A stretch of DNA of 29,992 nucleotides from a virus: IMG/VR virus record IMGVR_UViG_3300047560_000898, positions 1-29,992 of that record; one strand, given 5' to 3'. Below, in pieces: positions 10,461 through 27,714 of this stretch. The translations under genes were made by a program, and so were the position numbers. The notes below the pieces were generated by a model. The model was not told where the DNA came from, ran no database searches, and worked only from the letters and a program-made list of their open reading frames with translations. The number at the start of each line of letters is the position of its first letter. Position 1 is the stretch's first letter.

Positions 10461-10882
10461 TATCCGCGTGCCCCCTTGAATAGTTCGGACTTCTTGCCGT
10501 AGGTCGCTACCTTGTAAAAGTGAATTCCCATTTCGTCGCGGATCTCCCATACGCTAGGGATCTTTTCACCTACGAAATAACCGCGTGAGTGCATTTCTTG
10601 AATTGCGGAGTGAACGTATTGTTCGTCGTAGCCGTATTGCATAGGCATTTCGAACGCGATCGCGCCGTTGATCCAAACACGGTTCGAAAAGTAGGTATTG
10701 CCGTAAGTCTTATCGAACCATAAGCGACCTTCAACAAATACACTTTCAAGGTCGAACGCGTCGCAATAAGCGGGTTTATGGTAACCGCTAGCGTCTAAGT
10801 GATCTACGCCGACGAACTCTCCGCAGGCGTTGCATAGTGTGTCATTTCTATTTTCTAGTGTTATTTCTTCTGTCTGTATCAT
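10460..10882 (-). CDS. Hypothetical protein with N-terminal CxxC, first gene of the leftward block
   Basis: The 140-residue product starts at ATG 10882 with only a weak AAAAGAG upstream. Residues 14-40 carry C-x2-C (TLCNACGEF) and a later H/C pair (GYHKPAYCDAF), a probable zinc site. The middle (RLWFDKTYGNTYFSNRVWI) and following helix (EQYVHSAIQEMHSRGYF) are rich in aromatic residues and look like a small beta-sheet/helix domain. No family is recognised. A candidate promoter lies about 45 bases upstream. Confidence 0.75.
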   Translation of the reverse strand: MIQTEEITLENRNDTLCNACGEFVGVDHLDASGYHKPAYCDAFDLESVFVEGRLWFDKTYGNTYFSNRVWINGAIAFEMPMQYGYDEQYVHSAIQEMHSRGYFVGEKIPSVWEIRDEMGIHFYKVATYGKKSELFKGARG

Positions 10883-10955: not shown

Positions 10956-11047
10956 CTCCATTTATTAGCGAGTTTCGCCAGGATCTAGGGCACGAAGTGC
11001 CTCCGCAGCTGGCTCAGGTAACACTCAGAAAGTACTCAGGGTTTAAC

Positions 11048-11064
11048 GGTTGGTTGAGGGTTGG
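11048..11064 (+). other. Two-tier G-quadruplex motif
   Basis: GGTTGGTTGAGGGTTGG has four GG runs with 2-4-base loops. It closely resembles the known GGTTGG-type quadruplex aptamer architecture. It is located in the non-coding divergent region upstream of the DnaA-box-like array. Confidence 0.4.
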
Positions 11065-11160
11065 CAGTTGTCGCCCGTCGGATCTAGTAGGTGCAGGCAG
11101 TCGGTTCGGGTTGGTATCGAATCCAGGTCGGGCACGGTTGGAGGGCTATCGGTTGCATAT

Positions 11161-11187
11161 GGGGGAGAGTGCGGGAGGGTGCCAGGG
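11161..11187 (+). other. Three-tier G-quadruplex motif with competing stem
   Basis: Four G-runs (11161-11165, 11173-11175, 11177-11179, 11185-11187) with loops of 7, 1 and 5 bases satisfy the standard G-quadruplex rule. The segment 11174-11182 can instead pair with 11205-11213 (eight of nine bases), so the region may switch between a quadruplex and a hairpin. It lies 52 bases before the DnaA-box-like array. Confidence 0.5.
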
Positions 11188-11238
11188 TCTGCCGATTATC
11201 TAGTGCCCCCTCCTATTCCGTATCACAACGGGGCAAAC

Positions 11239-11283
11239 TTATCCACATTGTTATCCACAAACTGTGGACAGAGTTGTGGACGG
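11239..11283. promoter_or_regulatory. Array of four DnaA-box-like 9-mers: candidate replication origin
   Basis: Two perfect TTATCCACA boxes (11239-11247, 11251-11259) are followed by two reverse-oriented boxes, TGTGGACAG (11263-11271) and TGTGGACGG (11275-11283). All are separated by exactly 3 bases, so the repeat period is 12. The forward boxes equal the E. coli strong-box consensus; the reverse ones differ at one or two outer positions. The array sits in the largest non-coding region, between divergent operons, with an AT-rich stretch about 45 bases downstream. Host DnaA would bind here to start phage DNA replication. A binding site for a phage regulator is the alternative. Confidence 0.62.
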
Positions 11284-11326: not shown

Positions 11327-11380
11327 GTTAAAAAACGTGGCTATGGTACTGATACTCCCCCAAAAAATATATTTCCTAAA
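11327..11380. other. AT-rich stretch beside the DnaA-box-like array
   Basis: Two A/T-rich runs (TTGTTAAAAAA at 11327-11337 and CAAAAAATATATTTCC at about 11361-11376) lie 45-95 bases from the array. If the array is an origin, this would be the natural DNA-unwinding element. It is otherwise unremarkable. Confidence 0.35.
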
Positions 11381-11414
11381 GTGAAGCTGATCGAATATGC
11401 GGTCTGACCTGCAG

Positions 11415-11456: not shown

Positions 11457-11486
11457 ATGACTTTAATTTCGCGCCTTATATATAGT
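11457..11486 (+). promoter_or_regulatory. Candidate rightward promoter
   Basis: ATGACT (11457-11462) is a four-of-six match to the -35 consensus. It is followed after 18 bases by TATAGT (11481-11486), the same -10 and spacer as in the candidate leftward promoter. Transcription would start near 11493, run through the folded leader and reach the virion genes. Confidence 0.38.
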
Positions 11487-11503
11487 AGGGGAGTAAAGCG
11501 GGG

Positions 11504-11567
11504 AAGGGTCCGGTTTACGACCCGTACGCTACGGGTGAAACCCTTCGCGTAGCCCCCTAGGGCGAAG
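11504..11567 (+). ncRNA. Structured leader or small RNA upstream of terminase
   Basis: ACCCGTA (11520-11526) pairs with TACGGGT (11530-11536). The stem extends outward by GGTTT (11512-11516) with AAACC (11538-11542) and, past a bulge, AAG with CTT (11504-11506, 11543-11545), giving about 15 pairs. An alternative or second stem joins CTTCGC (11543-11548) to GCGAAG (11562-11567); it competes for the CTT. The element lies between a candidate promoter and a terminator-like hairpin and has no open frame with a start signal. It could be an attenuator or a separate small RNA of about 150 bases. Confidence 0.4.
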
Positions 11568-11620
11568 CGAGCAGTACCACTAAATGCGGGATAGGTCTAT
11601 CTAAATACAGATCTCTAGTA

Positions 11621-11716: not shown

Positions 11717-13576
11717 GTGGCAGAGAATTCAGCAGATATAGCTAAGAGGATTATCCTCGGCTGCGTCGCAGAAGGTATGACTATCGACGCCGCTTGCGGT
11801 TCAGCCGGTAAGTCGATGAAGACGTATGAGTACTACCGTCGTACCGACAAAGTATTTGCAGATAAGATTGATCGTACTAGGCTAGGACTGAAAGAAAAGT
11901 CCTTTGCCTCCGGCGACGTGCACGATATCGATTTTGTGGAATTCCGAGAACGGTTCCTCCATAGCAAGACTTTTCCACATCAGGTAAACCTAATAGATGT
12001 GATTGAAGGACGTGAACCTAGTTGGCTCCATCCCAGTATGAAGTACGAACCGGGCCTAGCGGCAAACCGTGTACTGATTAACATTCCGCCAAACCACGCC
12101 AAGTCGATTACGGTAACCGTCGACTACGTCACGTGGAAGGTAGCTCAGAACCCGAACTTCCGAGTTTTGATTGTATCCCAGACGCAGCAGTTAGCTGCCG
12201 ACTTTCTCTACGCCATCAAGCAAAGACTAACGCATCCTATGTATGCAGACCTCCAAAGTGCTTATGCTGCTGGTGTAGGGTTTAACTCTAAAACCGCTTC
12301 TTGGCAGGCAACCCGCGTCACCTTCGGTGATGAGCTTCGTGAGTCTAGCGAAAAGGATCCGAACATCGAAGCCGTCGGTATCGGCGGTCAGATTTACGGC
12401 AAGCGTGCCGATATGATTATTGTTGATGACGCGGTCACATTAAAGAACGCTAATGAGTTTGAGAAGCAGATACGCTGGCTAACCCAGGACGTACGTTCTC
12501 GTCTTAACCCTACTGGTAAGTTGATTGTTATTGGTACCCGTGTAGCCTCGGTTGACCTATACCGCGAACTTCGTAACGAAGACCGTTACCCAGGAGGTCA
12601 GGTTCCGTGGAAGTATTTGGCGATGCCGGCACTTCTTGAGATTGATGAGAACCCCGACAAGTGGGTTACCCTCTGGCCACACTCCGATGCTCCATTTGAT
12701 GGACAGGGTGAGGACGATAAGAACGAAGACGGTCTATATCCTAGATGGTCTGGTCGTAACTTATATAACGAACGCCAAGCGATGGATGCTTCAACCTGGG
12801 CGCTGGTCTACCAGCAACAGGATGTATCTGAGAACGCAGCGTTTGACCCAGTATGTGTTCGTGGCTCTATGGATGGAATGCGTAAAGCAGGACGTCTTGA
12901 GATGGGACATCCGGGCCACCCGAAAGACTTAACAGGCTTTAGCTTTATCTGCGGTATGGACCCAGCGATTGTCGGAGATACAGCAGCAGTCTGCTACGCA
13001 GTAGATCGTAATACTTCAAAGCGCTACATCGTAGACGTTATCAAGATTACCAAGCCTAGCCCGCAGCAAATCCGCGACATCATTATTAACTGGACGCAGC
13101 TTTACAGTCCGTCCGAGTGGATTATTGAAAAGAACGCTTTCCAGGCATTCTTGACGCAGGATGAAGGCATCAGATTATTCTTGGCAGGACGCGGCGTTAT
13201 CTTGCGTGAACACCATACTGGTTCTAATAAGTGGGACTCAGGTTTCGGTGTTGCATCTATGGCTACCTTATTTGGTACTAAGCAGCAAGATGGTAAGCAC
13301 CACCGCGACAACTTGATACACCTACCGAGTGATCAGACAGAAAACATCAAGGCTCTAGTAGAGCAGTTGATTACGTGGACACCTACGACTAAGGGTAAGA
13401 CCGATATCGTAATGGCGCTTTGGTTCTGTGAGATCCGAGCACGTGAGATGCTCAACTACGGTCAGTACGCAACGCACCACCTTAAGAATCCTTTCCTCTC
13501 CAGGGCGGAGTTGGGAAAGCGGGTAGTCATCAACATTGATGAGGCGCTCGCACAGCAGAATCAAACATTCGTCTAG
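11717..13576 (+). CDS. terL: Terminase large subunit with N-terminal HTH
   Basis: GTG 11717 has TAGGAG six bases upstream. The 619-residue protein packages DNA into the capsid. Residues 5-55 form a helix-turn-helix-like module (IAKRIILGCVAEGMTIDAAC, then KTYEYYRRTDKVFADKID) of the type found in small terminase subunits. The ATPase follows: a Walker A-like PPNHAKS (124-130), Walker B MIIVDD (233-238) and motif III VIGTRVAS (271-278). The C-terminal RNase H-like nuclease has ICGMDPA (D415) and WIIEKNAF (E471). No separate small terminase gene is seen nearby, so the DNA-recognition part may be fused here. It is the first gene of the virion block. Confidence 0.93.
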   Translation: MAENSADIAKRIILGCVAEGMTIDAACGSAGKSMKTYEYYRRTDKVFADKIDRTRLGLKEKSFASGDVHDIDFVEFRERFLHSKTFPHQVNLIDVIEGREPSWLHPSMKYEPGLAANRVLINIPPNHAKSITVTVDYVTWKVAQNPNFRVLIVSQTQQLAADFLYAIKQRLTHPMYADLQSAYAAGVGFNSKTASWQATRVTFGDELRESSEKDPNIEAVGIGGQIYGKRADMIIVDDAVTLKNANEFEKQIRWLTQDVRSRLNPTGKLIVIGTRVASVDLYRELRNEDRYPGGQVPWKYLAMPALLEIDENPDKWVTLWPHSDAPFDGQGEDDKNEDGLYPRWSGRNLYNERQAMDASTWALVYQQQDVSENAAFDPVCVRGSMDGMRKAGRLEMGHPGHPKDLTGFSFICGMDPAIVGDTAAVCYAVDRNTSKRYIVDVIKITKPSPQQIRDIIINWTQLYSPSEWIIEKNAFQAFLTQDEGIRLFLAGRGVILREHHTGSNKWDSGFGVASMATLFGTKQQDGKHHRDNLIHLPSDQTENIKALVEQLITWTPTTKGKTDIVMALWFCEIRAREMLNYGQYATHHLKNPFLSRAELGKRVVINIDEALAQQNQTFV

Positions 13577-26522: not shown

Positions 26523-27714
<1,192 letters not shown>

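Follow-up and report, generated by a model that had tools for sequence, protein, structure and literature searches.

The window, by which the whole analysed stretch of DNA is meant, is a virus record of 29,992 bases with genes for WhiB, a DnaB-like helicase, a split primase, a sigma factor, a terminase, a portal and a major head protein. The DnaB-like replicative helicase (292 aa; phrog_243, E 7.4e-72) is encoded at 859–1737 on the + strand, the large subunit of the terminase, TerL (phrog_38, E 1.2e-63), at 11717–13576 on the same strand, and a collagen-like protein of 286 aa with GPTG/GATG repeats, which is probably tail-associated, at 26854–27714. By TerL sequence (47 % identity), the closest named relatives are two phages in culture, LanE43-AprF5 and E7 (OX376641, OX376640), whose host is 'Ca. 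Planktophila' (order Ca. Nanopelagicales) and whose genomes likewise encode WhiB and a sigma factor (PMC10202952). A non-coding gap of 834 bp extends from the start of a leftward gene at 10882 to the start of terL at 11717, and terL forms the right border of the slot that is described here.

Within this gap, at 11239–11283, four DnaA boxes are arranged as TTATCCACA ttg TTATCCACA aac TGTGGACAG agt TGTGGACGG. They start at 11239, 11251, 11263 and 11275, i.e. in steps of exactly 12 bp with 3 bp in every spacer, and their orientation flips at the centre, as the first-pass annotation had described; the cores at 11242–11280 read TCCACA-N6-TCCACA-N3-TGTGGA-N6-TGTGGA. Box 1 (11239–11247, + strand) and box 2 (11251–11259, + strand), which follows 3 bp later, are the sole perfect TTATCCACA in the whole window. 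The inverted boxes on the − strand, TGTGGACAG and TGTGGACGG when read on the + strand, are less exact. Box 3 (11263–11271), CTGTCCACA, has two mismatches to TTATCCACA and one to the actinobacterial high-affinity box TTGTCCACA (consensus table, PMC4285127), whereas the weak box 4 (11275–11283), CCGTCCACA, has three and two, respectively, and retains the TCCACA core. The earlier description of two perfect boxes with two inverted close copies is thus accurate for boxes 1 to 3 and generous for box 4. By comparison with the DnaA consensus TTATNCACA or with TTGTCCACA the boxes of the window qualify as DnaA boxes. Among 12 register-matched arrays the core of box 1 is invariant (conservation 1.00), followed by the cores of box 2 (0.93), box 3 (0.82) and box 4 (0.64), the least conserved box, in comparison to 0.64 for the spacers and 0.61–0.62 for the flanks. 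In three relatives box 3 reads TTATGCACA, a change that is tolerated by TTATNCACA.

On the side of the early genes the array is preceded by a stretch (11020–11190, + strand) that is G-rich yet variable among relatives; one three-tract G-quadruplex motif starts at 11161 (+ strand) and many two-tract motifs are found from 11039 on. On the other side, about 80 bp from the array, lies the AT-rich element AAAAAATATATTTCCTAAAGT (about 11362–11382, + strand), a candidate unwinding element, which is conserved also in relatives without the array. ATATTTGCTAAA is found 5′ of terL in LanE43-AprF5 too; this phage and E7 share an AT-rich element upstream of terL with the window but have no DnaA-box array. 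The gap between leftward gene and terL, the G-quadruplex motifs and the AT-rich run are all present as first annotated. A promoter-like sequence directed towards terL (ATGACT-18-TATAGT, 11457–11486, + strand) is conserved in relatives, its count being one against 0.9 expected by shuffling. Next comes a putative structured RNA with which the terL transcript would begin (11484–11600, + strand), a neighbour of the array that lies outside it, with double compensatory changes in 6 of 13 predicted pairs (29 relatives, alignment A1). This element could be a leader RNA or an RNA for packaging or regulation; an Rfam search of the region including it matched no family, and no tRNA was found in the region.

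Single boxes with up to one mismatch are not in excess across the window (7 found, 7.0 expected). The arrangement, in contrast, is exceptional, since a four-core array is expected only 1.3e-10 times in a window with 16 cores, and it is the arrangement for which the earlier statement 'very unlikely by chance' holds. A scan of IMG/VR yielded the exact four-box pattern in 37 contigs with 15 distinct arrays and a version with 2-bp spacers in nine contigs, while the same type of scan yielded no IMG/VR contig for 4-bp spacers; a control pattern with reversed boxes did not occur in IMG/VR. A chance origin of the array is ruled out by the expectation together with the 4-bp-spacer and reversed-box controls. 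For E. coli DnaA it was found in vivo by ChIP-seq and mutagenesis that box pairs 2 or 3 bp apart are preferred and that one additional base pair abolishes binding (PMC11317965). The spacer order in phages, 3 bp before 2 bp and both far before 4 bp, matches this preference, and the array has the spacing of double DnaA boxes.

Two groups, which have no neighbour genes in common, can be told apart among the 37 contigs: the terL group, to which the window belongs, and group B, where the phages are larger (contigs of up to 108 kb), carry WhiB and have the array between converging genes. WhiB, an actinobacterial marker, is present in both groups, and some contigs with 2-bp spacers carry the flanking sequence of group B. 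In an unselected sample of 24 group B loci two strict arrays were found, both on contigs already known from the pattern search. In group B relatives (L128–L146, e.g. L139 1418–5673) pairs of TTATCCACA boxes, 20–21 bp apart, furthermore recur in many intergenic elements beside TGTGA-N6-TCACA palindromes and a GC hairpin, which gives the impression that several phage promoters are controlled by host DnaA and a CRP-like regulator. In a literature search no paper on DnaA boxes in these phages was found.

The distribution of the array within the terL group was determined in 58 relatives which were fetched by TerL alone and have enough upstream sequence; because IMG/VR contigs are often fragments, absence was counted only where 620 bp or more of the sequence upstream of terL were present. 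At least two boxes in register occur in 19 of the 58, and the array is absent even in relatives with 96–97 % identical TerL and conserved flanks. Along the TerL tree, in which some deep array-bearing rows came from the pattern search and are thus a biased sample, the array label changes at least seven times by supported branches and 11 times by parsimony. Most arrays of the group start 105–129 bp ahead of the AT-rich element TATATTTnCTAAAG, and the distance from array to terL differs between relatives. In relatives without the array, the AT-rich, promoter-like and RNA-like elements are all retained.

The slots without the array are often occupied by another motif. A TAGACA or TGTCTA site is present in 16 of 27 dereplicated array-less slots (shuffle mean 1.9) compared with 3 of 14 array-bearing ones, and in eight array-less slots (L110, L112, L117, L120, L122, L095, L066 and L052) the two form a dyad of exactly 19 bp, TAGACA-N13-TGTCTA, to which a third copy, 29 bp further, is sometimes added. 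It would thus seem that the slot is a cassette position for which two or more alternatives exist. Absence despite conserved flanks, named in the first-pass annotation as an outcome that would speak against an origin, does occur; with the other dyad often in its place it reads as replacement and not as lack of function. The only gene co-occurring with the array is one small ORF (6/6 array-bearing against 1/7 array-less, few genomes), and no initiator candidate follows the array in these 6 array-bearing and 7 array-less genomes. The helicase does not differ either, as phrog_243 is present in relatives of both kinds. To the left of the array slot, LexA/SOS-box-like palindromes (CGAACA-N4-TGTTCG), one or several, are located upstream of terL in L046, L047, L076 and L078, which suggests a further use of host regulators.

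From the kinship of the phages and from genome traits we infer that Ca. Nanopelagicales are the likely host group. Possible hosts were surveyed in 297 genomes of the actinobacterial class, from which the small rhodopsin-bearing ones were picked (1.2–1.5 Mb; dnaA regions with 40–48 % GC). A triad of boxes, TCCACA-N6-TCCACA-N3-TGTGG, is carried as a single copy by 98 of the 151 genomes of the order to which these streamlined actinobacteria belong, typically as TTATCCACAaagTTATCCACAggcTGTGGTCTAAAG, and class-wide by 110 of the 297; the reversed triad is absent from the same 151 genomes. In all 23 triad loci with a placeable dnaA the triad starts 13–74 bp upstream of the dnaA start. Like the array it has two direct boxes and one inverted box in 12-bp steps with TTATCCACA as second box, and 17-mers such as TTATCCACAGCCTGTGG are common to this element and the relatives of the window. 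It differs in its third box (TGTGGTCTA), in the missing fourth box and in its place at dnaA instead of terL; compared with the host, the phage array has retained the triad, has a box 3 that resembles a DnaA box more closely and possesses box 4 in addition. The full four-box form was found six times in genome contigs, in two Rubrobacteraceae about 0.87 kb upstream of dnaA, in one Ruminococcus near dnaN and three times elsewhere. With the triad at host dnaA and the four-box form by dnaA or dnaN, the layout is a signature of the bacterial dnaA/origin region and not a phage invention. The notion that the uniform spacing differs from oriC and is phage-specific has consequently to be given up, the sequence box-12-box-12-inverted box being common in actinobacteria. 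Some actinobacterial genomes (e.g. L185, L190 and L192) have a second DnaA-box cluster, in a 10–11 bp register, just downstream of dnaA.

In our judgement the array is very probably bound by host DnaA, and this part of the reading is well supported: the recruitment of host DnaA proposed at the outset agrees with the spacing test in phages and with the same element upstream of dnaA in the likely hosts. Overall, a high-affinity host-DnaA site with origin function is the most likely reading, and the layout of the array beside terL, like that of the sites before the dnaA gene of the host, suggests that the virus borrows the start machinery of its host for DNA copying. That the array is specifically the recognition part of the phage replication origin in a swappable slot appears to us somewhat better than an even proposition. 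It is favoured because no DNA polymerase of the phage itself was recognised, a conserved AT-rich element lies in the non-coding slot and the cassettes are swapped. As in an oriC, a cluster of DnaA boxes is found in a non-coding region. Several observations speak against an origin. Since the array is present in only 19 of 58 unselected relatives and missing in LanE43-AprF5 and E7, it is dispensable for the family at large; the AT-rich element persists without it, and in group B the array lies between converging operons. Furthermore, the host element is located at the dnaA promoter and may hence be a transcription element. The inflection of GC skew that was to be looked for follows gene direction only: coding-strand third-position skew is −0.036 for the early, −0.033 for the leftward and −0.078 for the late genes, and after coding-strand correction no switch in strand composition, as would mark an oriC, is left at the array.

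In the proposed mechanism the array would consist of two face-to-face 'double DnaA boxes' which are cooperatively bound by host DnaA, copying the layout of the DnaA element before the host dnaA gene plus a fourth box. Assembly of host DnaA would open nearby AT-rich DNA, with 11362–11382 as candidate, and the host replisome would then be loaded; the modular slot would provide DnaA boxes in some relatives and a different dyad in others. What the data show directly are the sequence, the spacing rule, the recurrence of the array, its match to the element upstream of host-type dnaA and the lack of a recognised phage DNA polymerase, whereas DnaA binding, strand opening, helicase loading and origin activity are all inferred. 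Loading of the host replisome is proposed because no examined phage of the group encodes a family-A DNA polymerase (absent from 22 of 22 records examined). In G007, a close array-bearing relative of 39,113 bp that is taken as complete because of its 113-bp terminal repeat, the only ORFs of at least 500 aa are the terminase, the portal and two ORFs of 1472 aa and 721 aa, none of them recognised as a polymerase. Replication would therefore lean on the host polymerase, barring an unrecognised one. With its 292 aa the phage helicase may lack the N-terminal part of DnaB, as judged from the general size of DnaB, and so DnaA may load host DnaB instead. It is conceivable, although we would rather bet against it, that unrelated actinophages independently took up the dnaA-upstream element of their hosts as a replication-start cassette, and that the swap with TAGACA-N13-TGTCTA in the terL-side slot represents exchangeable origins within one family, of which one is driven by host DnaA.

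The main rival to an origin is transcription control, because the element of the host is located at the promoter of dnaA. Host DnaA would then use the array as an operator and, in the way it acts on its own promoter, repress or activate the early and late promoters that diverge here; we consider this clearly less probable than an origin. The host distance of 13–74 bp upstream of dnaA, the conserved promoter-like sequence about 175 bp to the right of the array, the often regulatory role of double DnaA boxes in E. coli (PMC11317965) and the LexA-like or TAGACA sites that relatives carry in this region all fit such a switch. However, some 175–220 bp separate the array from the late promoter and about 360 bp from the start codon of the leftward gene, its distance to terL is variable, and the four-box forms of other bacteria lie in gaps adjoining dnaA or dnaN. 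Next in order, and unlikely, is a sponge for DnaA: many phage copies would titrate the protein of the host, whose initiation would be halted or whose dnaA would be derepressed. High-affinity double boxes multiplied by the phage copy number, as opposed to one element per matching host genome, would be suited to this, but titration needs no fixed place, and most arrays of the family occupy one common slot, where their distance from the AT-rich element hardly varies.

Very little probability is assigned to sites of another protein, of phage or host, or to a hairpin or terminator in place of DnaA sites. The inverted halves can pair and T runs are present in some group B arrays, but hairpin stability is no better than in shuffled sequences (z −1.31), the array of the window has no T tract and its outer flanks, TTA and CGG, are unpaired, and both the core and the 2–3 bp spacing obey the rules for DnaA, with the same element in front of dnaA in the hosts. 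An intrinsic terminator or functional hairpin was rejected on this z value and since no terminator-like site exists at the array. A packaging (cos/pac) site with incidental boxes is the least credible of these readings. The slot does adjoin terL, and related Streptomyces phage records begin about 660–680 bp upstream of terL; packaging sites should nevertheless be common to close relatives, yet the array is swapped at 96–97 % TerL identity, and it is the promoter/RNA region that forms the conserved block.

Reliance of phage replication on host DnaA has precedents in the P1 plasmid replicon and in phage 186. These differ from the present case in hosts and layout, and no phage Rep initiator was recognised here. 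The 'double DnaA boxes' of E. coli have TTATCCACA-type boxes and a spacing of 2–3 bp with 4 bp not tolerated, as in the phage, but they are pairs at chromosomal promoters and the origin, whereas the phage has two facing pairs (PMC11317965). Bacterial oriC likewise combines a non-coding DnaA-box cluster with a nearby AT-rich stretch (PMC4285127); unlike it, the putative phage origin has only four boxes in 45 bp and is unconserved across the family, including close relatives (19/58).

The array makes it testable how replication starts in phages of the most abundant freshwater bacteria. If the reading as an origin is true, phage replication would be tied to the initiation state of the host. The exchange of the array among nearly identical phages offers a natural panel for DnaA spacing rules beyond E. 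coli, and the strict 3-bp double-box spacing is a searchable sequence signature for metagenomic phages. A strict four-box array is also found in an Actinomycetaceae MAG (L040, 3798–3836) just 5′ of an ORF resembling the replicative helicase gene dnaB, where a control of dnaB by DnaA is possible.
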